From an uncultured Flavobacteriales bacterium (GTDB taxonomy: Bacteria > Bacteroidota > Bacteroidia > Flavobacteriales_G > Salibacteraceae), in assembly GCA_943788725.1 (NCBI GenBank), contig CALSRJ010000006.1:124001-188000 (forward strand): DNA of 64,000 nt. Reading direction: 5' to 3'. The notes beneath the pieces were generated by a model. That model was not told where the DNA came from, did not search any database, and saw only the letters and a list, made by a program, of their open reading frames with translations. Each line of letters begins with the position of its first letter. Within the stretch, counting starts at the first letter, position 1. This document shows positions 25,305-36,726 of this stretch, piece after piece. The position numbers were made by a program, and so were the translations under genes.

Positions 25305-25334
25305 TGTTTAGGGTTTATAACATTTCTTTAAACA
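25305..25334. promoter_or_regulatory. Candidate operator: inverted TGTTTA / TAAACA pair between uvrC and the CarH-like gene
   Basis: TGTTTA (25305-25310) and TAAACA (25329-25334) form an inverted pair separated by 18 bases, in the 135-base divergent gap before the MerR-type regulator. The same words recur several times before the ECF sigma gene, so they may be the regulator's binding half-sites, giving autoregulation. This is inferred from recurrence only. Confidence 0.4.
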
Positions 25335-25405: not shown

Positions 25406-26290
25406 ATGGGAGCGTATGCAATCAAGGACTTAGAGCAGTTATCGGGGATCAAGGCCCATACCATCCGAATATGGGAGCAACGCTATGGCATAATAGAACC
25501 AAAGCGAACGGATACTAATATCCGCTATTACGACGACGATCAATTGAAATTTGTATTGAATGTGGCGTTACTCAGTCGCCATGGGTACAAAATCTCAAAG
25601 ATTTCAAGGCTTTCCGACCATGAGTTCAAGAATGAAATCGAGAAACTGTATGAGCAGACATTAATCCACGACACAGACGTAGTCTTGGATCTCGACGCAA
25701 ATGACCTGATGGTTTCGATGATCGACATGGATGCCGAGAAATTTCATCGGATTTATGAAAACTCCGTCAAAAACAACGGTTTCGAGCGGACCATCACGCA
25801 CTTGATTTACCCCTTCCTAGAAAAGGTAGGCATCCTGTGGTCCATTGGCCAGGTCAATCCAGCCCATGAACATTTCATCTCTTGCCTAATACGTCAAAAG
25901 GTCATCTCCGGAATTGATCGCCTCCCTAATCCTGTCACCGGAAAGAAATTCCTCCTTTTTCTTCCCCAAGGAGAGCACCACGAAATTGGATTGTTGATGG
26001 CAAGCTACCTGTTGAAGAAGAATGGATGCAGGGTCTATTACATGGGCCAAAACCTTCCTGACAAGGATGTCCAATCATCCATTGTCACCATTCAGCCCGA
26101 TGCCGTCCTGACCTTTTTCGTAGATCCAGCCCTGCTTACCAGGGCTACCGAAACCGCACAAACCATGATTAAGCGGTGTGGGGATTGTGAAATCCTTATC
26201 GCTACCCGTCCTGCTCCGCAACTCGAAGAGATTCAGTACGACCATTTGCACTTTCTGCACGGTCTAAAGGACTTAGAAAACTACTACTGA
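25406..26290 (+). CDS. MerR-family regulator with B12-binding domain (CarH/LitR-like photoreceptor)
   Basis: Probable light-sensing repressor. Residues 4-72 form a MerR winged HTH (IRIWEQRYGIIEPKR). Residues about 95-175 are the helical cap with the W-x9-EH motif (W145, E155-H156) used by adenosylcobalamin photoreceptors. From about 180 on is a cobalamin-binding Rossmann fold with an E-x-H-E-x-G version (E190, H192, E193, G195) of the ExHDxG motif, so the axial His is kept. The 294 residues match CarH. In Myxococcus and Thermus, CarH with adenosylcobalamin represses carotenoid genes in the dark and light releases it. The next genes downstream are an ECF sigma factor and crtI/crtB, which fits that role. 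Confidence 0.87.
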   Translation: MGAYAIKDLEQLSGIKAHTIRIWEQRYGIIEPKRTDTNIRYYDDDQLKFVLNVALLSRHGYKISKISRLSDHEFKNEIEKLYEQTLIHDTDVVLDLDANDLMVSMIDMDAEKFHRIYENSVKNNGFERTITHLIYPFLEKVGILWSIGQVNPAHEHFISCLIRQKVISGIDRLPNPVTGKKFLLFLPQGEHHEIGLLMASYLLKKNGCRVYYMGQNLPDKDVQSSIVTIQPDAVLTFFVDPALLTRATETAQTMIKRCGDCEILIATRPAPQLEEIQYDHLHFLHGLKDLENYY

Positions 26291-26333
26291 CCCATTCACC
26301 GCTTCCTTCCAACATTTCTTTCACAACCTAAAC

Positions 26334-26457
26334 GCCTGATTTCTAGGATTTTTAATGTTTTTGTTTAGACTTTTTGCTATTTAGTTAAACATTTTCTTGT
26401 GGGAAAGGAGGTTTGCGCATACATTTGTTTAAGTTTAATCCAAAAACGTTAAACACA
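26334..26457 (+). promoter_or_regulatory. Promoter and clustered operator-like repeats of the ECF sigma-crt-phr operon
   Basis: A TTG at 26397-26399 and TACATTTG at 26420-26427 are separated by 20 bases, an almost ideal Bacteroidota promoter, giving a start near 26434 and a leader of about 24 bases. About six GTTTA/TAAAC words lie in this stretch (around 26333, 26361, 26385, 26427, 26433, 26450). They include GTTAAAC before the -33 and TGTTTAAG overlapping the -7, as expected for a repressor blocking polymerase. Binding by the CarH-like protein is inferred. Confidence 0.6.
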
Positions 26458-26967
26458 ATGTCAACAATAGAATTCAATCATCAGATCCTTTCCTTCCGCA
26501 AGCCGCTCGAGTATTTCGCATACAGCTTAACGCACAACGACGATGATGCACAGGACTTAGTGCAGGACACGTATATGAAAGCCGTTGCATACAAAGACAA
26601 GTTCAGGGAGGCAACCAATCTGAAGGCGTGGATGTATACCATCATGAAGAACACCTTCATCAACAACTATCGCCGTCAAGTAAAATCTCGGACCATCATT
26701 GATCAATCCGAAGACCTTTATTATCTTTCAAACGCACCTGACGCTCGAGATAAGCACCCTGGTAGTATGTACAACCACAGCGAGATCTTCAAGAGTGTCA
26801 ACGCACTGCAAGACGAATACCGTATCCCGTTTAACATGCACACCGATGGATATAAATACAAGGAGATCGCAGACTACTTGAAGCTTCCTATTGGAACCGT
26901 TAAGAGTCGCATATTTCTTGCTCGCAAGAAGTTGATGGATGTACTAAGCGACTACAACCCCAACTAA
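26458..26967 (+). CDS. ECF-type RNA polymerase sigma factor
   Basis: RpoE-like sigma-70 factor of 169 residues. Region 2 is NDDDAQDLVQDTYMKAV followed by LKAWMYTIMKNTFINNYRR. Region 4 is YKYKEIADYLKLPIGTVKSRIFLARKKL. I start at ATG 26458 (MSTIEFNHQ); the frame extends upstream, but those codons overlap the promoter. No anti-sigma gene follows, so control is probably transcriptional through the CarH-like repressor, as in LitR-LitS type circuits. It is the first gene of the ten-gene operon and may activate further light-responsive genes elsewhere. Confidence 0.88.
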   Translation: MSTIEFNHQILSFRKPLEYFAYSLTHNDDDAQDLVQDTYMKAVAYKDKFREATNLKAWMYTIMKNTFINNYRRQVKSRTIIDQSEDLYYLSNAPDARDKHPGSMYNHSEIFKSVNALQDEYRIPFNMHTDGYKYKEIADYLKLPIGTVKSRIFLARKKLMDVLSDYNPN

Positions 26968-26975
26968 AATCACCC

Positions 26976-28442
26976 ATGCCTACCACCACCATCATAGGTT
27001 CCGGATTCTCAGCACTTTCAGCGGCCACAGCGCTCGCAGATAAAGGGCACGACGTCACCATCCTCGAGAAAAATGATTCTCCAGGAGGTCGCGCACAGAA
27101 GTTCGAGACGGATGGTTTTGTTTTTGACATGGGTCCGAGTTGGTATTGGATGCCCGACGTGTTCGAAAAGTACTTTGAACGTTTTGGCAAGTCGCCTTCC
27201 GACTATTACGACCTCAAGCGCTTGGATCCTTCTTACCGGGTTTATTTCGAAGACGAACACGTGGACATCCCTGCCAATTTCGAGCAGCTTCAAGCGCTTT
27301 TCGAAGCCAGGGAAAAAGGAGCGGGCAAGCGCCTACAATCTTTTCTAGAAGACGCAGCCATTAAGTACGAGGCTGGCATCAATGACCTGGTGCATCGTCC
27401 AAGTCTTTCGCTTTTCGAATTCATTGACTGGAAGGTGATCAAAGGCCTCTTTCAGCTCGATCTTTTCTTCAACTTCAAAGATTTTGCCCGGAAGTATTTC
27501 AGCGACCCCAAGCTGCTTAGCATCATAGAATTTCCGGTTCTCTTTCTTGGAGCAATGCCAAAGGAAACCCCGGCTCTGTACAGCTTGATGAACTATGCCG
27601 ACCTCAAACTTGGCACGTGGTACCCGATGGGCGGAATGCACAAAATCGTAGAAGGAATGGTAGCCCTAGCGAAAGAAAAAGGGGTGAAATTTCAGTTCAA
27701 TCAAAACGTAGAACGCATCTATGAAGACGGTGACATGAAAGTGGTTACTCCATCTGGTACTGTTACTTCAGACTATGTAGTTGGAGGAGCGGATTATGCC
27801 CACATCGACCAAGCCTTGCTAGACCCAACCGACAGACAATACAGCGCAGCTTATTGGGAGAGCCGCGTTATGGCCCCTTCGAGCTTACTTTTCTATGTAG
27901 GCGTCAACAAGCGGGTCAAGAACCTACTGCACCACAATCTCTTTTTCGATGCTGATTTCAACGCACATGCCGAGGAGATTTATAAATCGAAGCAATGGCC
28001 CAAGCACCCTCTCTTTTACGTATGTGCTCCCTCTGTGACCGACCCCTCTGTCGCTCCAGAAGGACATGAAAATCTTTTCTTCCTCATTCCCATCGCTGCC
28101 GGCATAGACGGTGATTCGGACGAAGTGCGCGAGCGCTACTTCCGAATGATCCTCGATCGCATCAAAAAGCACACGGGTGAAGACATTTCAGAAAACATTG
28201 TTTACAAAAGAAGCTACGCGGTTAAAGAATTCGTAGAGGACTACAACGCCTTCAAGGGCAACGCTTACGGTCTTGCAAACACCTTGCTACAGACCGCCTT
28301 TTTAAAGCCAAGAATCAAGCACAAGAAATTGAAGCATCTATATTTTACTGGTCAGTTGACGGCGCCGGGACCAGGCGTTCCTCCATCGCTTATCAGCGGC
28401 CAAGTTGTTGCCGACCATATTGTTAAACTCAACCTCAATTGA
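26976..28442 (+). CDS. crtI: Phytoene desaturase (CrtI type)
   Basis: FAD-dependent desaturase converting phytoene to lycopene (or a lower desaturation product) at the membrane. The N-terminal dinucleotide fold is IIGSGFSALSAATALA, with LEKNDSPGGRA after it; the C-terminal carotenoid-desaturase signature is YFTGQLTAPGPGVPPSLISG. The 488 residues match bacterial CrtI. It starts eight bases after the sigma gene and abuts crtB. Confidence 0.95.
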   Translation: MPTTTIIGSGFSALSAATALADKGHDVTILEKNDSPGGRAQKFETDGFVFDMGPSWYWMPDVFEKYFERFGKSPSDYYDLKRLDPSYRVYFEDEHVDIPANFEQLQALFEAREKGAGKRLQSFLEDAAIKYEAGINDLVHRPSLSLFEFIDWKVIKGLFQLDLFFNFKDFARKYFSDPKLLSIIEFPVLFLGAMPKETPALYSLMNYADLKLGTWYPMGGMHKIVEGMVALAKEKGVKFQFNQNVERIYEDGDMKVVTPSGTVTSDYVVGGADYAHIDQALLDPTDRQYSAAYWESRVMAPSSLLFYVGVNKRVKNLLHHNLFFDADFNAHAEEIYKSKQWPKHPLFYVCAPSVTDPSVAPEGHENLFFLIPIAAGIDGDSDEVRERYFRMILDRIKKHTGEDISENIVYKRSYAVKEFVEDYNAFKGNAYGLANTLLQTAFLKPRIKHKKLKHLYFTGQLTAPGPGVPPSLISGQVVADHIVKLNLN

Positions 28443-28444
28443 CC

Positions 28445-29281
28445 ATGAAAGAACTCTTTGACAACGTCAGTTTGCAAGCCAGCAAAATCACGACACGATC
28501 ATACAGTACTTCATTCTCACTAGGAACGCGTTTCCTAGGGCCATCCGTGCGAGATGCCGTCTACTCGATTTACGGTTTCGTGCGCTTCGCCGACGAGATT
28601 GTAGACACCTTCCATGGCTATGATAAAGCACGCCTCCTCGACAAGTTTCAGCGAGACGCGTATGAGGCCATCGACGATCGCATTTCGCTCAACCCCATCC
28701 TCAATAGCTTTCAACACGCAGTGCACAACTATGGTATCGAACGAGAATTGATCGATACGTTTCTGGAGAGCATGCGCATGGACCTTGACAAGAAGAACTA
28801 TTCCAGACAAGGCTATGAGCAATACATTTTGGGAAGTGCCGAGGTGGTTGGCTTGATGTGCTTGCGCGTCTTCGTGCAAGGCGATGACGAGATGTACCAA
28901 CGTCTACAACAACCCGCTATGCGCTTAGGGTCCGCGTTTCAGAAAATCAACTTTTTGCGCGATATCAAAGCCGATTTTGCGGAAATGGGTAGGACTTATT
29001 TCCCCGGCATTGACATGCAGAATTTTAACGACAACGAAAAGAAGCGCATCGAAAGGGAAATCGAAGAGGATTTCGCTGCAGGATATGCTGGCATCATCCA
29101 ACTCCCAAAGAATTCTCGCTTTGGGGTTTACATGGCATACGTGTACTTCTATCAACTCTTCAAGAAGATCGAACGCACCCAAGCCGTTGACATCCTGAAG
29201 GCGAGAATCCGCATTCCAAACCAACGCAAGTACGCCATGTTTGTAGAGAGCTACCTCAAGCATAGCCTCAATTTACTATGA
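28445..29281 (+). CDS. crtB: Phytoene synthase
   Basis: Condenses two geranylgeranyl diphosphates to phytoene. The first Asp-rich motif is in RFADEIVDTFHG and the second region is FLRDIKADFAEMGRTYFP. I choose the ATG at 28445, two bases after the crtI stop, over a TTG overlapping it; about 278 residues is typical. It overlaps the following unknown gene by four bases. No crtE, crtY or crtZ is in the window, so the end carotenoid cannot be told. Confidence 0.94.
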   Translation: MKELFDNVSLQASKITTRSYSTSFSLGTRFLGPSVRDAVYSIYGFVRFADEIVDTFHGYDKARLLDKFQRDAYEAIDDRISLNPILNSFQHAVHNYGIERELIDTFLESMRMDLDKKNYSRQGYEQYILGSAEVVGLMCLRVFVQGDDEMYQRLQQPAMRLGSAFQKINFLRDIKADFAEMGRTYFPGIDMQNFNDNEKKRIEREIEEDFAAGYAGIIQLPKNSRFGVYMAYVYFYQLFKKIERTQAVDILKARIRIPNQRKYAMFVESYLKHSLNLL

Positions 29282-29778
29282 CGCACCTGGTGATCATCGT
29301 ATTGAGCTTGGTCTTGACAAGCAGCATCCGCGCAAACGACCCCGACAAGGTCAGGAGTGCCTTTATGCTCGCCACCCAAGATTTAGATGCTCGCGCTGAG
29401 TTGGTGGAAAGACTAACGACCAACCATGGCGGCGACGCCTCTTTTCGGTCTGCCTATTTGGGCGCTTCCTTGACCTTACTAGCTGAATGTTCTGTTGCTC
29501 CATGGACCAAATTCAACCAATTCGTCCAAGGGAGTGAACTCCTCGAGGAGGCCATCGCTGCAAAGCCAAACGAAGCTGAATTTAGGTACCTGCGTTTCCT
29601 CATTCAAATCAACGCACCGTCTTTCCTGAATTATGATGACAACCTTCAGGAAGACTACATAGCCATTAACAACACCCTCCAGAATTCAACCGAGGAAGCC
29701 CTCTGGATGCAGCATTATCGGTCTTTTGAAAAAGAACACAGTCCATTGATCCGAAAGCAAGTAGACACAGCATATTAA
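29278..29778 (+). CDS. Unknown exported protein in the carotenoid operon
   Basis: Protein of 166 residues with an N-terminal hydrophobic signal (to about SSIRA) and then a helical region. The repeat-like segments (NHGGDASFRSAYLGASLTLLAEC and SELLEEAIAAKPNEAEFRYLR) resemble a TPR-type fold, so it is probably periplasmic. No family name can be given. Four-base overlap with crtB and a two-base gap to idi place it firmly in the operon. A role in assembling or protecting carotenoid enzymes is a guess. Confidence 0.65.
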   Translation: MTHLVIIVLSLVLTSSIRANDPDKVRSAFMLATQDLDARAELVERLTTNHGGDASFRSAYLGASLTLLAECSVAPWTKFNQFVQGSELLEEAIAAKPNEAEFRYLRFLIQINAPSFLNYDDNLQEDYIAINNTLQNSTEEALWMQHYRSFEKEHSPLIRKQVDTAY

Positions 29779-29780
29779 TC

Positions 29781-30302
29781 ATGGAAAAAGTAATCCTTGT
29801 AAACGAAGACGATCAGTCCACCGGATGGATGGAGAAAATGGAAGCGCACCGGAAAGGAGTCTTGCATCGCGCTTTCTCGGTGTTCATTTTCAATGACAAC
29901 GGAGAAATGTTGATCCATCGCAGAGCCCTTGATAAGTACCATTCGGGCGGGTTATGGACAAACGCTTGTTGCAGTCACCCACGTGAAGGAGAAACCACCG
30001 AAGAATCAGCCCATCGCAGGCTCATGGAGGAAATGGGCTTCGACTGTGATATCCAAGGGCAGTTCTCATTCATCTATCGCGCCGAGTTGGACAATGACCT
30101 GATCGAGCACGAACTCGACCATGTATTCTTTGGCCGCTTCAACGGCAAGCCAGTTCCCCACCCTGAGGAAGTTTATGAATGGAAGTATGTTTCCATGCAG
30201 GCACTCAACCGAGACGTAAGCATGCGTCCGGAAGCTTACACCGAATGGTTCAAAATCGCCCTGAATGAAATTCAGAGTAAGAAATTGGCCGTCGCAACGT
30301 GA
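29781..30302 (+). CDS. idi: Isopentenyl-diphosphate delta-isomerase, type I
   Basis: Nudix-fold enzyme interconverting IPP and DMAPP, feeding the carotenoid pathway. HRAFSVFIFN starts the fold; the catalytic Cys is in NACCSHPREGE and the Nudix-like helix is ESAHRRLMEEMGF; HELDHVFFG is also conserved. The 173 residues are normal for type I. The stop TGA overlaps the GTG start of the PTPS gene. Confidence 0.93.
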   Translation: MEKVILVNEDDQSTGWMEKMEAHRKGVLHRAFSVFIFNDNGEMLIHRRALDKYHSGGLWTNACCSHPREGETTEESAHRRLMEEMGFDCDIQGQFSFIYRAELDNDLIEHELDHVFFGRFNGKPVPHPEEVYEWKYVSMQALNRDVSMRPEAYTEWFKIALNEIQSKKLAVAT

Positions 30303-30709
30303 AGGTAAAGGTCAGTAGAAAAGAGCATTTCAATGCCGCCCACCGCCTTCACAATTCCGCATGGGACGATGCGCGTAATGCGGAGGTGTTTGGCAAATGC
30401 AACAACCCAAATTTTCACGGGCACAACTATGAAGTCGTAGCCGATGTGACCGGAGAAATCGACCCAGATTCTGGCTACGTCATTGACATGAAGGACTTGA
30501 AACAACTCTTAAAAGAGGAAGTAATCGAACCCTTTGACCACCGCAACCTCAATTTGGATGTGGCAGAATTCAAAACGCTCAACCCCACTGCAGAAAACAT
30601 GGTCGTGGTGATCTGGAAGCGCCTGCGCAACAGGCTTGCAGCTGACCTCGACCTCAGTGTAACCCTTTACGAAACGGAAAGAAATTATGTTGAATACAAT
30701 GGGAAATAA
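30299..30709 (+). CDS. 6-pyruvoyl-tetrahydropterin synthase (PTPS/QueD superfamily, PTPS-like)
   Basis: Acts on 7,8-dihydroneopterin triphosphate. Zinc ligands are His15, His40 and His42; the catalytic Cys34 is in FGKCNNPNFHGHNY and the Asp80-His81 pair in FDHRNLNLD. The CNNPNxHGHNY wording and the general run of the sequence resemble animal PTPS more than E. coli QueD (which has a shorter RLHGHSF-type motif), so I favour pyruvoyl-tetrahydropterin synthesis over queuosine. The GTG start overlaps the idi stop. The neighbour folE supplies the substrate. The queuosine alternative remains possible. Confidence 0.8.
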   Translation: MKVKVSRKEHFNAAHRLHNSAWDDARNAEVFGKCNNPNFHGHNYEVVADVTGEIDPDSGYVIDMKDLKQLLKEEVIEPFDHRNLNLDVAEFKTLNPTAENMVVVIWKRLRNRLAADLDLSVTLYETERNYVEYNGK

Positions 30710-31361
30710 AGAAGCGTTGCTCGAGGCATTGGACTACGAACACCATTGGAATGGCCTTTCGACGCCGATGCGAGAAGACGCTCAGGTACTATCCCCTGAA
30801 GAAAAAATCCAGAAGATCCGAGGACATTTCCAAGAGATCATGGAGACCTTGGGGATGGACTTGAACGACGAAAACCTTCAGGACACGCCTAATCGAGTGG
30901 CCAAAATGTTCGTAAACGAAGTGTTTAAGGGCTTGAATCCAGACAACAAGCCGGAGATCAAGCTCTTTAACAACAAGTACAAATACAAGGAGATGTTGGT
31001 AGAGCGTGACATTACGGTCTATTCGTACTGTGAGCACCACTTTGTACCGATCATCGGAAAAGCGCACATAGCGTACATCAGCAGCGGGCATGTGATCGGT
31101 TTGAGCAAGATCAACCGACTGGTTGAATACTATGCCAAGCGCCCTCAAGTGCAGGAACGCCTGAACGAACAAATCGCAAAGGCGTTGAAAGAAGTATTGA
31201 AAACCGACGACGTGGCAGTAGTAATCGATGCAGAACACTTGTGTGTGAAATCACGAGGTATTCAGGATACGGCGAGCAGCACGGTAACGGCGAGCTACCA
31301 CGGAAAATTCAAAGACCCCGAGGTAAGAAAGGAGTTTCTCCATTATGTCAACCTGAAGTAA
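30687..31361 (+). CDS. folE: GTP cyclohydrolase I
   Basis: First enzyme of pterin and folate synthesis (GTP to 7,8-dihydroneopterin triphosphate). Zinc-binding Cys and His are in YSYCEHHFVP and HLCVKSRG; IGLSKINRLVEYYAKRPQVQE is conserved. The start is uncertain: ATG 30687 has a GGAAAGAA stretch before it, and ATG 30699 (MGNKEALLEA) is the alternative. Either way it overlaps the PTPS gene. Its place inside a carotenoid-photolyase operon suggests a dedicated, light-induced copy rather than the housekeeping one. Confidence 0.92.
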   Translation: MLNTMGNKEALLEALDYEHHWNGLSTPMREDAQVLSPEEKIQKIRGHFQEIMETLGMDLNDENLQDTPNRVAKMFVNEVFKGLNPDNKPEIKLFNNKYKYKEMLVERDITVYSYCEHHFVPIIGKAHIAYISSGHVIGLSKINRLVEYYAKRPQVQERLNEQIAKALKEVLKTDDVAVVIDAEHLCVKSRGIQDTASSTVTASYHGKFKDPEVRKEFLHYVNLK

Positions 31362-31366
31362 GCCCT

Positions 31367-32050
31367 ATGAAAGTTTTAGTAGTAGGAGGCAGCAAAGGGA
31401 TTGGAAAAGCAGCCACAGAACTCCTCTTGGAGCAGGGGCATGAAGTAATAGTAGCGGCCCGCAGCAACGACGACGTCCGTCACTTACCAATCGAATGCAT
31501 CGAAATAGATGTAACCCAAGATGTCAGTGCCTTGGAAGACTTGGACGACCTCAATGGTTTGCTCTTTTGTCCCGGCAGTATCAATTTACGTCCTTTTCAT
31601 CGCCTGACTGCATCCGATTTTCAAAGCGACTTCGACCTGAACGTCATGGGGGCGGTAAAAGTCCTGCAGGCGTGTCGTTCAGCCCTCAAAGCCGGCAATG
31701 GATCGGTCGTACTCTTCAGCACCGTTGCCGTGCAACAGGGTATGCCTTTCCACGCTTCCGTGGCCGTGGCCAAAGGAGCCTTAGAAGGCTTGACGCGCAC
31801 CCTTGCTGCCGAATGGGCGCCAGACATGCGGGTCAATGCCATTGCGCCAAGCTTAACGGACACCCCCTTGGCCGAAGGTTTATTATCGAACGAAAAAAGG
31901 CGCGAAGCGAGCGAACAGCGCCATCCTCTAAAGAGAGTGGGCACGCCTGAAGACATCGCCTCCATTGCCGTGCACCTCCTTTCGAAGAACGGCAGCTGGA
32001 TCACCGGCCAGGTAATTGGCATTGACGGCGGCATGAGCAGATTGCGATGA
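31367..32050 (+). CDS. Short-chain dehydrogenase/reductase lacking the catalytic Tyr
   Basis: SDR-fold protein of 227 residues starting at ATG 31367. The cofactor loop is GGSKGIGKA (7-15), the Ser region is VVLFSTVAV (about 118) and the C-terminal end GQVIGIDGGMS is standard. The YxxxK motif is altered: Lys136 is present, but the Tyr position is Val132 (HASVAVAKGALEG). With PTPS and FolE beside it, a sepiapterin- or dihydromonapterin-reductase-like role is attractive, but the missing Tyr means classical SDR catalysis is doubtful. The ATGA overlap with the flavin reductase gene shows tight coupling. Confidence 0.8.
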   Translation: MKVLVVGGSKGIGKAATELLLEQGHEVIVAARSNDDVRHLPIECIEIDVTQDVSALEDLDDLNGLLFCPGSINLRPFHRLTASDFQSDFDLNVMGAVKVLQACRSALKAGNGSVVLFSTVAVQQGMPFHASVAVAKGALEGLTRTLAAEWAPDMRVNAIAPSLTDTPLAEGLLSNEKRREASEQRHPLKRVGTPEDIASIAVHLLSKNGSWITGQVIGIDGGMSRLR

Positions 32051-32664
32051 GTCAACTCCATTTCACATCCGAAGACTGGAAGGTCAGTGAAGACCGTTAT
32101 TGGATCACCTTCTTCAATTCGATCAGCGGTCCTCGGTCGGTTGTGATGATCGGAACCCAAGACCAGGAAGGCGTCGGCAACATTGGACTGTTCAATTCGC
32201 TTGTGCACTTGGGCGCAAATCCGCCCTTACTCGCTTTTATTCTTAGGCCCACGACGGTGCCCCGGCATACCTACCAAAACATCCTTTCTTCCGGTTGCTA
32301 CACCATACAGCATGGCACTGTTGACCTACTCTCCAAAGTGCATCAAACATCTGCTAAGTACGATACGAAACAGGATGAATTCGAAGAAATTGGATTTGAA
32401 AAATCCTACATCGAAGGCTTCCAGGCGCCCTTTATTCAAGGAGTGCCTATTAGCTTGGCAATGGAATTCCGGGAAGAACACACGGTCAAATCAAACAACA
32501 CGCGATTGATCGTAGGGGAGGTCAAGCACGTGTTTGTCAACGAGCGCTTAATTGACCAGGATGGTTGTGTAGACACCTCAAAGGCAGACACCCTCTTGGT
32601 AAGCGGACTGGATGCTTATCACCGACACGATCGCATCAAACGAATGAAGTATGCCCGGCCCTAA
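32047..32664 (+). CDS. Flavin reductase-like FMN-binding split-barrel protein
   Basis: Protein of 205 residues with the flavin-reductase-like domain: NSISGPRSVVMIGTQDQEG, NIGLFNSLVHLGANPPLLAFI and RHTYQNILSSGCYTIQ. It is likely to bind FMN and reduce flavin with NAD(P)H. Its coupling to the photolyase gene (14-base overlap with that open frame) suggests it may help supply or keep reduced flavin; this is inference. Confidence 0.82.
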   Translation: MSQLHFTSEDWKVSEDRYWITFFNSISGPRSVVMIGTQDQEGVGNIGLFNSLVHLGANPPLLAFILRPTTVPRHTYQNILSSGCYTIQHGTVDLLSKVHQTSAKYDTKQDEFEEIGFEKSYIEGFQAPFIQGVPISLAMEFREEHTVKSNNTRLIVGEVKHVFVNERLIDQDGCVDTSKADTLLVSGLDAYHRHDRIKRMKYARP

Positions 32665-32671
32665 ACAAGCA

Positions 32672-33967
32672 ATGTCCCTCTTCTGGTTTCGGCGCGACTT
32701 ACGCCTCGAAGACAACCATGGGCTTTACCAAGCGCTGAAGGATGGAAACAACGTTCAACCCATCTTCATTTTTGACCGCAATATCTTAGACAAACTAGAG
32801 GATAAAGATGACCGCAGGGTGAGCTTCATCCATGCCCAACTCGTCAAGATCGAAGCCCAATTAAGTCCATTCGGAGCGCATTTATGGGTCTTCCACGGAA
32901 ATCCAATCGATGTCTTCCAACAACTCGTAAAAGACTACTCCATCGAGGCGCTCTATGCCAATCGCGATTACGAACCATATGCCAGAGATCGTGACAAGGC
33001 CGTTCATACACTACTAGCATCGAAGGGTATTCGGTTCCGGGCTTTCAAAGACCAAGTCATTTTTGAGAAGGAAGAAGTGATGAAGGACAATGGTGAGCCG
33101 TATGTGGTTTACTCCCCCTTCATGCGCCGATGGAAAAGCATCGTGAACGACGACCACTTTGCGCCCTACCCGAGCGAGGAACAGACACAACATTTTCACC
33201 GATCGGAACAAGTCAAAATGGTCTCTCTGCAAGCCCTTGGCTTTGAGCAACACCCTGCCGATTGGAGCGGTGCAGAAGTTGACCTGTCGGTCGTCAAGCA
33301 CTACCACCAAACGCGTGATCTTCCTGGGAAGCCTGGCACTAGTCGACTCTCACACCACCTGCGTTTTGGTACCGTAAGCATTCGTGCTTTGATGCGTATA
33401 GGCAAGGACCTGAATGAAAAATGGTACAACGAGCTCATCTGGCGGGAGTTCTACCAAAGCATTCTATGGCATTTCCCGCGCGTGACCAAGGAAAGTTTCC
33501 GAAAGGAATACGACCACATCGAATGGAGGAACAATGAGGCTGAGTTTGAAGCTTGGTGCGAAGGCCGTACTGGTTTCCCCATCGTAGATGCCGGTATGCG
33601 CGAACTGAATCAGACCGGATTCATGCACAATCGGGTGCGCATGATCGTTGCCAGCTTTTTGACCAAACATTTATTGATCGACTGGCGCTGGGGCGAAGCC
33701 TATTTCGCAAGAAAACTGCTTGACTTTGACTTGGCCTCCAATAACGGAGGGTGGCAATGGGCTGCAGGCTGTGGCGTGGATGCCGCGCCATACTTCCGGG
33801 TTTTCAATCCGTACTTGCAAACGGAAAAATTTGATCCAGATCAGACCTATATCCTGCGCTGGGTGTCGGAAGTTGACACAGACCAATATCCAAGTCCAAT
33901 CGTAGACCACAAATTCGCAAGAAACCGGGTGCTAGAAGTGTATAAGGCGGCCTTAAAACCAGACTAA
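32672..33967 (+). CDS. phr: Deoxyribodipyrimidine photolyase / cryptochrome family protein
   Basis: Light-driven repair of UV pyrimidine dimers. The N-terminal alpha/beta antenna domain starts LFWFRRDLRLEDN; the FAD-binding helical domain carries WREFYQSILWHFP, FPIVDAGMRELNQTGFMHNR, DWRWGEAYFARKLLDFD and LASNNGGWQWAAGCGVDAAP. The sequence is class I CPD-photolyase-like, with the Asn and Trp residues of the active site and electron chain in place. I start at ATG 32672 (MSLFWFRR); an ATG at 32651 is possible. Last gene of the operon, ending 22 bases from the convergent paaB. Confidence 0.93.
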   Translation: MSLFWFRRDLRLEDNHGLYQALKDGNNVQPIFIFDRNILDKLEDKDDRRVSFIHAQLVKIEAQLSPFGAHLWVFHGNPIDVFQQLVKDYSIEALYANRDYEPYARDRDKAVHTLLASKGIRFRAFKDQVIFEKEEVMKDNGEPYVVYSPFMRRWKSIVNDDHFAPYPSEEQTQHFHRSEQVKMVSLQALGFEQHPADWSGAEVDLSVVKHYHQTRDLPGKPGTSRLSHHLRFGTVSIRALMRIGKDLNEKWYNELIWREFYQSILWHFPRVTKESFRKEYDHIEWRNNEAEFEAWCEGRTGFPIVDAGMRELNQTGFMHNRVRMIVASFLTKHLLIDWRWGEAYFARKLLDFDLASNNGGWQWAAGCGVDAAPYFRVFNPYLQTEKFDPDQTYILRWVSEVDTDQYPSPIVDHKFARNRVLEVYKAALKPD

Positions 33968-35673: not shown

Positions 35674-36726
35674 ATGATGTTCCAACCATTCGTAAACTTA
35701 ACACACAAAATTATGCATGAAGACAAGATTTTCATTGGTGCTGATGTAAGTAAACTTACCATTGATTTTACGCTCCTTTTGAATGATCAAGTTGAGCACC
35801 AGTGTGTAGAAAACACTGTAGCTGCCCTCTCTTCTTACTTGAAGGCTGTAAAACGTCGCTTTAAGGTCAAGGACGCTTCTATCTACCTAGGCATTGAGAA
35901 TACAGGCCGTTACAGTTGGCCTGCATTACGCGCGTTTAGCTGCGGTGAATTGAAGTTACACCTACTCTCTCCGCTTCACTTGAGTAAAAGTCAAGGACTG
36001 GTTCGCGGTAAATCTGACCTTGTCGATAGTCAGCGTATTGCTCGCTTTTTGAAAAAGAACCTTGATGAGCTATCGCTTTATCAAAAGCCACGCGAAGTCA
36101 TTGAAGAACTATCTCTTCTACTTGCTCGAAGAAATAAGCTCCAAAAGCTTATCAAAGCCGAGTCAGCAACCATAGAAGAGATGGGTCAGGTGAGTAAGGG
36201 CAGGGTAAGATCCTTCATTATAGCAGATAGTAAAAAGTCAGTTCTTGCATTGAGGAAACGGCTTCAAATGGTTGAACTTCAAATCGAAAATCTTATCGCT
36301 GAAGATCAAGACCTCAAACACAAGGTCAAACTCTTAATGAGCATTTCTGGGGTAGGTAAAATCCTTAGTTGGTATCTATTGGTTAAAACCAATGAGTTCA
36401 AAAACTTTGATGACCCAAGAAAGTTAGCCTGTTTTGCCGGTGTGGCACCATTCCAGCATACATCAGGTACTTCCGTTCGAGGTCGAACAAGGGTATCGAG
36501 CTTTGCCGACAAAACACTTAAACGTATCCTTCACCTTGCTGCACTCAGAGTCACACAAATGAAAGGAGAGTTGGGAGAATACTACCGAAGAAAAGTGGAA
36601 GAAGGAAAGAATAAAATGGCCGTTATTAACGCGTTGAGAAACAAAATCATACACAGAATCATGGCCGTAATCCGTGAGGATAGACCCTACCAAATCAGAG
36701 AAAAAAATACTTTGCTAGTGTCATAG
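35674..36726 (+). CDS. IS110-family transposase (DEDD recombinase), copy 2
   Basis: Differs from copy 1 by only three noticed residues. D24, E75, D115, D118 and Ser264 are all present, and the E-N-T-G and GVAP motifs have the usual residues. However, residue 225 is Ser in ISGVG where copy 1 has IPGVG. An AAGGAG ribosome-site-like stretch 11 bases before the first ATG is also the predicted donor-guide 3' half. The later ATG at 35713 (MHEDKIFIG) is an alternative start that would lengthen the RNA region to about 212 bases. Confidence 0.92.
   Translation: MMFQPFVNLTHKIMHEDKIFIGADVSKLTIDFTLLLNDQVEHQCVENTVAALSSYLKAVKRRFKVKDASIYLGIENTGRYSWPALRAFSCGELKLHLLSPLHLSKSQGLVRGKSDLVDSQRIARFLKKNLDELSLYQKPREVIEELSLLLARRNKLQKLIKAESATIEEMGQVSKGRVRSFIIADSKKSVLALRKRLQMVELQIENLIAEDQDLKHKVKLLMSISGVGKILSWYLLVKTNEFKNFDDPRKLACFAGVAPFQHTSGTSVRGRTRVSSFADKTLKRILHLAALRVTQMKGELGEYYRRKVEEGKNKMAVINALRNKIIHRIMAVIREDRPYQIREKNTLLVS

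Follow-up and report, generated by a model that had tools for sequence, protein, structure and literature searches.

Why should a photolyase gene share its operon with enzymes of pterin synthesis? The question is raised by an uncultured Flavobacteriales bacterium of the Salibacteraceae (assembly GCA_943788725.1), in which a 6-pyruvoyl-tetrahydropterin synthase (PTPS), a GTP cyclohydrolase I (FolE) and a short-chain dehydrogenase/reductase (SDR) are encoded in a row upstream of a flavin-reductase-like protein and a photolyase. The window analysed here is the whole 64,000-nucleotide stretch that surrounds them, bases 124001-188000 of contig 6 (CALSRJ010000006.1), in a genome of 2.93 Mb that is 99% complete in 7 contigs. 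A preliminary description of this window had taken the three enzymes for a complete tetrahydrobiopterin-like set inside a photolyase operon. Our analysis points instead to a CarH-type, light-induced photoprotection operon or regulon with a dedicated tetrahydropterin branch, a reading to which we would give a probability of roughly 0.6. A CarH-like regulator and its presumed operators, which the preliminary description did not include, appear to be the best clue to function, and they stand at the head of the following features.

25305..25334, no strand: presumed CarH operator copy 1, exact match to the palindrome TGTTTA-N18-TAAACA, upstream of the MerR gene
25406..26290, + strand: MerR-family regulator with B12-binding domains (MerR-B12), predicted CarH/LitR class I type; PF13411 and PF02607 over cut-off, motifs Wx9EH and ExHxxG
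26362..26391, no strand: presumed operator copy 2, exact match, upstream of the ECF sigma gene
26420..26427, + strand: TACATTTG, element of the Bacteroidota -7 type TAnnTTTG, overlapping the left half of operator copy 3
26426..26455, no strand: presumed operator copy 3, exact match, directly before the ECF sigma gene
26458..26967, + strand: extracytoplasmic function (ECF) sigma factor; PF04542, PF08281
26976..28442, + strand: CrtI-type phytoene desaturase; NF058655 CrtID, 738 bits, over cut-off
28445..29281, + strand: phytoene synthase CrtB; PF00494, 154 bits
29278..29778, + strand: ORF166; no match in the Pfam search
29781..30302, + strand: isopentenyl-diphosphate isomerase type 1 (Idi); NF002995 and TIGR02150 over cut-off
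30299..30709, + strand: PTPS of the PTPS-II type, GTG start; PF01242, 125 bits; motif CNNPNFHGHNY; tree
30687..31361, + strand: GTP cyclohydrolase I (FolE); PF01227, TIGR00063 and NF006824 (281.8 bits, cut-off 202), over cut-off
31367..32050, + strand: photolyase-associated SDR without the catalytic Tyr; PF13561, 160 bits; His at K-7, Val at K-4, Lys kept
32047..32664, + strand: flavin-reductase-like split-barrel protein; PF01613; best solved relative 3fge, E 1.8e-51
32651..33967, + strand: class I photolyase (Phr); PF00875, PF03441; 1owl, E 4.2e-88

The gene run (25406-33967) lies on one strand, and from the ECF gene onward successive genes are separated by short gaps or overlap (Idi/PTPS by 4 nt, SDR/flavin-reductase by 4 nt, flavin-reductase/Phr by 14 nt), for which reason they are probably read as a single transcript. 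The three pterin-type genes are intact reading frames, as first described, and PTPS and FolE do overlap, by 23 nt or by 11 nt if the second ATG of FolE is the start. Their actual order, however, is PTPS-FolE-SDR, and the supposed FolE/SDR overlap is not required, since it follows from a mechanical GTG start at 31241 and an ATG at 31367 is available 5 nt past the FolE stop. The run does end with the photolyase, and it begins further upstream with the MerR-B12 and ECF genes. The full order (MerR, ECF, CrtI, CrtB, ORF166, Idi, PTPS, FolE, SDR, flavin reductase, Phr) recurs in both sampled congeners (L096, L097) and in a Salibacteraceae metagenome-assembled genome (MAG; L010), and again, minus ORF166, in a Flavobacteriales MAG (L043). 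Given this recurrence, the arrangement is in all probability more than chance.

The case for light control begins with the regulator. The MerR protein matches PF02310 with E 1e-5, below the cut-off of that family, and reads WSIGQVNPAHEH at Wx9EH and EHHEIG at ExHxxG. Wx9EH, which we take to be significant for CarH, is found in all seven related MerR loci as well as in the window, and ExHxxG in the window and in four of the seven, being unseen in the remaining three. Both occur (WHRGEIGVAEEH and ERHEIG) in a Thermus protein that is annotated as carH and is 26% identical to the window protein. Class I LitR/CarH proteins are photosensors that use adenosylcobalamin, AdoB12 (PMC9758184; this and the other papers cited are represented here by excerpts), and the MerR protein appears, from its motifs and domains, to be a predicted B12 light sensor of this class.

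The second element is the palindrome. With one mismatch allowed, 0.09 copies would be expected in the window; it holds four, of which three are exact and the fourth lies within crtI. Its spacing is sharply defined: in 451 stretches upstream of operon-type genes, a set that includes the loci where the palindrome was first noticed and leaves out the PTPS-B and FolE-B queries and any match whose start lies over 40 residues into the query or whose coverage of it is below 40%, exact halves occur 21 times at spacing 18 and four times at spacing 19, all other spacings between 4 and 31 giving none. In the same stretches, 29 permuted palindromes with spacing 18 gave a mean of 0.14 and at most 1, and with one mismatch allowed the count rises to 32 versus a permuted mean of 1.7 and a maximum of 7. 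A later set of 40 PTPS sites, none of which copies an earlier locus (the closest is 84% identical over 3.5 kb), has the palindrome within 250 nt upstream in 12 cases with at most one mismatch (permuted mean 0.14) and in five cases exactly (permuted 0). By reading, these sites have FolE downstream in 28 cases, Idi upstream in 13, Crt genes in two and a photolyase in four; a MerR-B12 gene is present at five of them, and a sixth has an ECF gene alone.

Whether the palindrome is recognised by the CarH-like protein is a separate matter. It could be the site of another regulator, or TGTTTA and TAAACA could be the -35 and -10 boxes of an ECF sigma promoter 18 nt apart. A spacing of 18 does resemble a promoter spacer, ECF genes adjoin the sites, and a MerR-B12 gene was unseen in the fetched stretch of most palindrome loci outside the window, the search having covered these stretches and not the whole genomes. 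On the other hand, the palindrome has near-perfect two-fold symmetry, extended in most exact sites to TTTTGTTTAA...TTAAACAAAA; in the window, L010 and L096 it is the carH-like gene itself that the palindrome precedes; and in the window a separate putative promoter element of the TAnnTTTG type, TACATTTG, overlaps the site. Elements of this type lie near 11 of the 27 sites, and promoter placement is thus not uniform. We consider a site for something other than CarH unlikely, and the CarH-like protein is the presumed binder of the palindrome.

The distribution of the palindrome also bears on whether the pterin genes belong to the system or are merely carried in it. In a scan of 188 loci at spacings 17-20, an exact palindrome is present in 27, and outside the window the genes found behind exact copies are PTPS, FolE, SDR, Phr, SRPBCC-like, TIGR03643-like and ECF genes. 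Directly behind it stand a separate PTPS-FolE pair (L117), FolE-SDR (L171), SDR (L167), Phr (L164), SRPBCC-SDR (L123), TIGR03643-SDR (L173) and, with one mismatch, a FolE encoded on the opposite strand (L174); other matches in the 79 SDR loci, mostly with one mismatch, are near no named gene. Within 250 nt upstream of PTPS it occurs in 10 of 17 loci with an SDR downstream vs 1 of 55 without (Fisher p 3.6e-7, eight truncated loci being set aside, one of them bearing the palindrome), nine of the ten belonging to the Cyclobacteriaceae, so that the cases are not independent. Since the palindrome precedes pterin genes elsewhere, these look like regulon members in their own right. The competing idea, that PTPS-FolE is a housekeeping pterin pair which shares no function with the photoprotection operon in which it hitch-hikes, can point out that 179 of the 198 class genomes have a PTPS relative (PTPS-A or PTPS-B type), in many cases with no link to light genes. 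It has to face the palindrome in L117, where the PTPS-FolE pair behind it stands apart from the SDR-Phr run, as well as the copies before FolE-SDR (L171) and, with one mismatch, before the opposite-strand FolE (L174), together with the variety of partners, such as CarH-ECF-Idi-PTPS-FolE (G009, G054, G124, G155, G185) and PTPS-FolE-Phr (G109); we judge it to have little going for it.

As to what the pair would make, the identity of the PTPS is well constrained. Its nearest solved relatives are the human and rat enzymes (131 bits; QueD entries reach 41 bits), and the catalytic Cys, the Asp-His pair, the zinc His residues and the pterin-binding Glu all align with rat 1b66. The motif CNNPNFHGHNY has C-x5-HGH spacing, which is the rule for PTPS-II (biopterin), QueD having C-x3-HGH and PTPS-III (folate bypass) ExxHGH (PMC5041015). 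In a tree of 104 rows, built after excluding duplicate rows and matches that contained stops or spanned fewer than 110 query residues, the four QueD references split off with a branch support of 100/97; with few columns, inner forks are mostly unresolved and the placing of long rows such as that of C. elegans is unsure. All 100 other rows, animal enzymes included, have C-x5-HGH, and the four QueD references have C-x3-HGH; three of the latter lie beside annotated queC/queE, and the E. coli one comes from an unannotated record. The suggestion that this PTPS resembles the animal enzyme is thus borne out by motif, solved relatives and tree, and a position within QueD, which the preliminary description had named as grounds for refutation, is not what the tree shows. 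A role of the set in queuosine synthesis, with PTPS as QueD, is already contradicted and seems to us vanishingly improbable: the NCBIfam QueD model does match at 74.9 bits, but this is below its cut-off of 89.25, spacing and tree place the protein outside QueD, and a search for QueC in the genome gave no true QueC, only two partial matches, the better one an asparagine synthase and the other, below cut-off, unexamined (queE and queF were not searched for). A folate bypass by PTPS-III was rejected as well, the ExxHGH motif being absent from the PTPS and FolB existing in the genome.

The check for further copies, recommended in the preliminary description, did turn up another PTPS-FolE pair, of diverged sequence, next to fabD on contig 3 (C3:125946-126945; L006). 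With FolB on contig 5 and pterin-4a-carbinolamine dehydratase (PCD) on contig 1, this makes the operon pair an extra set. From the types of enzyme encoded, the operon FolE and PTPS should together make an animal-style reduced pterin derived from 6-pyruvoyl-tetrahydropterin. The contig 3 PTPS (CANPNWHGHNY) forms its own branch together with tandem copies in Chitinophagaceae. A weak third match at C1:339377 (21.7 bits, below cut-off) was discarded, as no start-codon ORF of at least 80 aa covers it.

Several other PTPS loci deserve a record. In G086 (C12:172046-172447) a PTPS copy before FolE-SDR-flavin reductase-Phr has four TAA stops and is apparently broken, its neighbours remaining. Loci L025 and L029-L032 are among those with PTPS directly behind idi, a link between a pterin enzyme and isoprenoid synthesis. 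Two MAG contigs named Thalassobius and Bdellovibrio (L046, L072) carry a Bacteroidota-like PTPS and are probably mis-binned, although in L046 an exact palindrome lies 194 nt ahead of the PTPS gene.

It is at the third step that the complete tetrahydrobiopterin (BH4) set fails. SDR orthologues at E 1e-45 or better are present in 80 of the 198 class genomes, own included, with one match each, and in their alignment the active-site Lys and a His at K-7 are invariant (80/80), Ser is kept in 77 and Tyr in none, its position being occupied by I (45), V (34) or T (1). The Gly motif (GxxxGIG) is retained along with the Lys, and the Ser-Tyr-Lys signature of a classical SDR oxidoreductase is lacking; a Mesorhizobium relative and a Methylobacterium plasmid relative share the Tyr-less pattern. 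An AlphaFold model (42 sequences, mean pLDDT 91) has an ordinary SDR fold (5ff9, TM 0.90). Among the best 25 of 220 NCBIfam families listed, none reaches its cut-off, and the SDR is missing from the nine matches to TIGR01500 (sepiapterin reductase) at E 1e-3 in its own genome, all nine of which are under the cut-off. We accordingly rejected the SDR as a sepiapterin or pteridine reductase. A FabI-like geometry, with an acid residue at K-7, is not claimed either, the best 50 structure matches listed being ordinary classical SDRs. Neither the SDR nor the flavin-reductase-like protein has a match in PADLOC, and the phage collection holds no SDR match at E 1e-30.

The neighbours of the SDR tell the same story. 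On the same strand within 8 kb, the 79 SDR loci have a flavin-reductase-like gene in 36 cases, a photolyase homologue in 34, FolE in 20, PTPS in 14, an SRPBCC-like gene in nine (labelled by eye, as family searches gave no match), CrtB in six and MerR-B12 in five, all of these counts being lower bounds because some contigs are short; clustering adds a photolyase of DPRP/FeS-BCP type at 16 loci and a TIGR03643/DUF2805 protein at 13. The pairing with phr, which had been noted as suggestive, is therefore found well beyond the window, including 4 of the 40 later PTPS sites. The Mesorhizobium relative (46%) lies beside an FAD oxidoreductase, DUF1365, cfa, fasciclin, MsrPQ, TspO and two photolyase-family genes. 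Several of these parts are shared with the Rhodobacter sigma-E regulon, and we therefore regard the protein as an SDR of photooxidative stress that accompanies photolyases. By residues and company it belongs to a photolyase-associated SDR family and is not a normal sepiapterin reductase.

A complete BH4 pathway, with FolE, PTPS and the SDR as sepiapterin reductase, is consequently unlikely. In its favour, the FolE and PTPS-II identifications are sound, the order PTPS-FolE-SDR is found in 13 of the 79 SDR loci (17 of 80 PTPS loci have the SDR downstream) and PCD is present. The genome also encodes a candidate user of the pterin in an FA_hydroxylase-family membrane protein of 426 aa (C5:80041-81315; L175:868-2148, - strand), which resembles alkylglycerol monooxygenase (AGMO), a BH4 enzyme in animals; no solved relative of it was found, and its sole NCBIfam match, an ornithine-lipid hydroxylase, is below cut-off. 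At E 1e-40 it has relatives in 111 of the 198 genomes. These AGMO-like proteins co-occur with PTPS-A, defined as the first 80 of the 198 genomes ranked (best E 2.2e-47 or better), in 58 of 80 genomes vs 53 of 118 others, and the SDR does so in 53 of 80 vs 27 of 118, in both cases uncorrected for kinship. Against the pathway stand the replaced Tyr, with its invariant His at K-7 and Lys, the absence of the SDR from the TIGR01500 matches, the preference for flavin-reductase-like and photolyase neighbours over PTPS, and the 65 of 79 SDR loci in which a same-strand PTPS is lacking within 8 kb (some contigs being short). An aromatic-amino-acid hydroxylase as the user was rejected, Biopterin_H being absent from the genome and unassociated with PTPS-A over the 198 genomes (25 of 80 vs 30 of 118, uncorrected for kinship). 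Full BH4 synthesis would need another reductase.

A further possibility is that the extra FolE and PTPS feed the antenna pool of the photolyase with methenyltetrahydrofolate (MTHF) or another pterin. The photolyases linked to SDR and PTPS loci are of class I and of the DPRP/FeS-BCP type, a linkage that agrees with such a supply. Among solved structures, however, the window photolyase is nearest to 1owl, a photolyase of the 8-hydroxy-5-deazaflavin (8-HDF) type, and its best NCBIfam model is also the 8-HDF type, below cut-off. At the presumed MTHF site it reads EPYARDRD, with EPYA kept in 27 aligned sequences, so that the Asn-Glu pair that binds MTHF in E. coli is Tyr-Ala here. FolE is induced along with photolyases in Pseudomonas and Rhodobacter (PMC9758184, PMC7074977), which speaks for the supply, but a PTPS-II is needless for folate, FolB and a second FolE are present, and the motif of the folate-bypass type is ExxHGH (PMC5041015). 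We regard antenna or folate supply as improbable, and an antenna role of the pterin as weaker than that of a redox cofactor or quencher.

These observations can be brought together in a CarH-type photoprotection operon that would work as follows. In the dark, the CarH-like protein with AdoB12 would sit on the palindromes at its own promoter and over that of the ECF sigma gene; light would destroy the B12 ligand, free the palindromes and allow the operon to be read. Carotenoid (through CrtI, CrtB and Idi), photolyase and a reduced pterin derived from FolE and PTPS would then be made together, the pterin adding to the output of the contig 3 pair, and 6-pyruvoyl-tetrahydropterin would be reduced either by the Tyr-less SDR with its altered site or by another SDR. 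Most likely, the pterin would be a reduced, unconjugated redox cofactor or a quencher of singlet oxygen and radicals, and not a precursor of folate or queuosine. A bolder form of this scheme, in which a CarH-governed light regulon of the Bacteroidota (operator approximately TTGTTTAA-N16-TTAAACAA) switches on the synthesis of a BH4-like reduced pterin by a dedicated animal-type PTPS and FolE, and the SDR is a new terminal pterin reductase or a flavin/pterin redox partner of the photolyases, is possible and yet doubtful.

A number of results weigh against light-induced photoprotection with its own pterin branch. The best NCBIfam model for the MerR protein is CarH, at 101.1 bits versus an equivalog cut-off of 400, and at most palindromes outside the window a MerR-B12 gene was, as said, unseen in the stretch fetched. 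PTPS-FolE occurs with no SDR, photolyase or carotenoid link in 24 of 80 loci, Hymenobacter and Dyadobacter included, and in 29 of 80, mostly Flavobacteriaceae, PTPS lies behind idi with no adjacent FolE. No palindrome is found within 250 nt upstream at 28 of the 40 later PTPS sites, where some PTPS genes are inside longer operons, and over the 40 sites the operator shows no association with whether the genome has the SDR (8 of 25 vs 4 of 15, p = 1). The dominance of Cyclobacteriaceae among the palindrome-bearing PTPS-SDR loci and the lack of Biopterin_H in the genome count on the same side.

Two side observations concern the operon and its surroundings. ORF166 has homologues in three of the 79 SDR loci by tblastn and four by clustering, plus L010, and sits between crtB and idi in L010, L096, L097 and L117. 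Downstream of the operon, at 35674-36726 of the window, there is an ORF that by eye resembles an IS110-type transposase.

Control of carotenoid genes by CarH/LitR with clustered photolyase is known already from Thermus, as is the presence of GTP cyclohydrolase in light and singlet-oxygen regulons. Within the literature searched, the novel elements are a PTPS-II in such a regulon, a palindrome spread over Bacteroidota families and an invariantly Tyr-less SDR; no account of the operon or the operator was found in open-licence literature, and an earlier description elsewhere is possible. For marine Flavobacteriia a gene-proximity cluster with photolyase has been reported, cyclohydrolase, pterin and MerR being absent from the main text (PMC5932025), and a Chryseobacterium makes a light-induced carotenoid whose regulator is given as unknown (PMC7064467). 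The Pseudomonas and Rhodobacter regulons place a GTP cyclohydrolase beside a photolyase, and the excerpts state no purpose for the pterin (PMC9758184, PMC7074977). With a PTPS-II of its own, the branch described here would be limited to products derived from 6-pyruvoyl-tetrahydropterin. With pterin genes in an apparently light-controlled carotenoid and photolyase operon, pterin use in bacterial sunlight defence thus becomes testable, and the sharpness of the palindrome lets target genes and genomes be predicted. If the proposed regulon is real, a widespread phylum would defend itself against sunlight in part by the light-gated synthesis of an animal-type pterin, and the SDR with its conserved lack of Tyr would be a concrete unknown enzyme.

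Among known systems, plasmid pTT27 of Thermus thermophilus (NC_005838) has a carH with both CarH motifs adjoining crtB and phr, and by gene content the 42 kb read also contain crtI, isopentenyl-diphosphate isomerase, SDRs, a flavin reductase and a tryptophan-rich sensory protein. The differences are that no folE or PTPS is annotated within these 42 kb, that the two classical SDRs tested keep the Tyr and are not close to the window SDR, and that the flavin reductase has no similarity to that of the window at E 1e-3; orthology of the Thermus SDR and flavin reductase with the window genes is thus unsupported by the comparison. In P. putida, FolE and PhrB are among the light-inducible genes that depend on PplR, and in P. 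mendocina folM-folE, beside a class II LitR gene, is modestly induced by light (folE 1.6 to 3.3-fold) (PMC9758184). The Pseudomonas LitR systems (PplR/PmlR) are thus alike in their light-induced folM-folE-folX and in a phrB cluster with an SDR, and differ in using a class II LitR with a LOV partner and a FolX/FolM pterin branch, with PTPS unmentioned in the excerpt (PMC9758184). The sigma-E/ChrR singlet-oxygen regulon of Rhodobacter sphaeroides joins phrA, cfaS, fasciclin, the GTP cyclohydrolase folE2 and an SDR (RSP_1087), the latter likened to ours by family, but it is under sigma/anti-sigma control, employs FolE2 and not FolE1, and its excerpt likewise leaves PTPS unmentioned (PMC7074977). 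In cyanobacterial UV-A phototaxis, a BH4-type pterin (BH4/cyanopterin) is also tied to a light response and to a cryptochrome, there as a proposed photoreceptor chromophore formed by a pteridine glycosyltransferase, an enzyme that is not among the operon genes (PMC3546692). The animal PTPS, finally, differs in setting from that of the window, which belongs to a photolyase and carotenoid operon in a genome with no Biopterin_H, and shares with it and with bacterial PTPS-II the motif, the active-site residues aligned with the rat enzyme and the same side of the tree.

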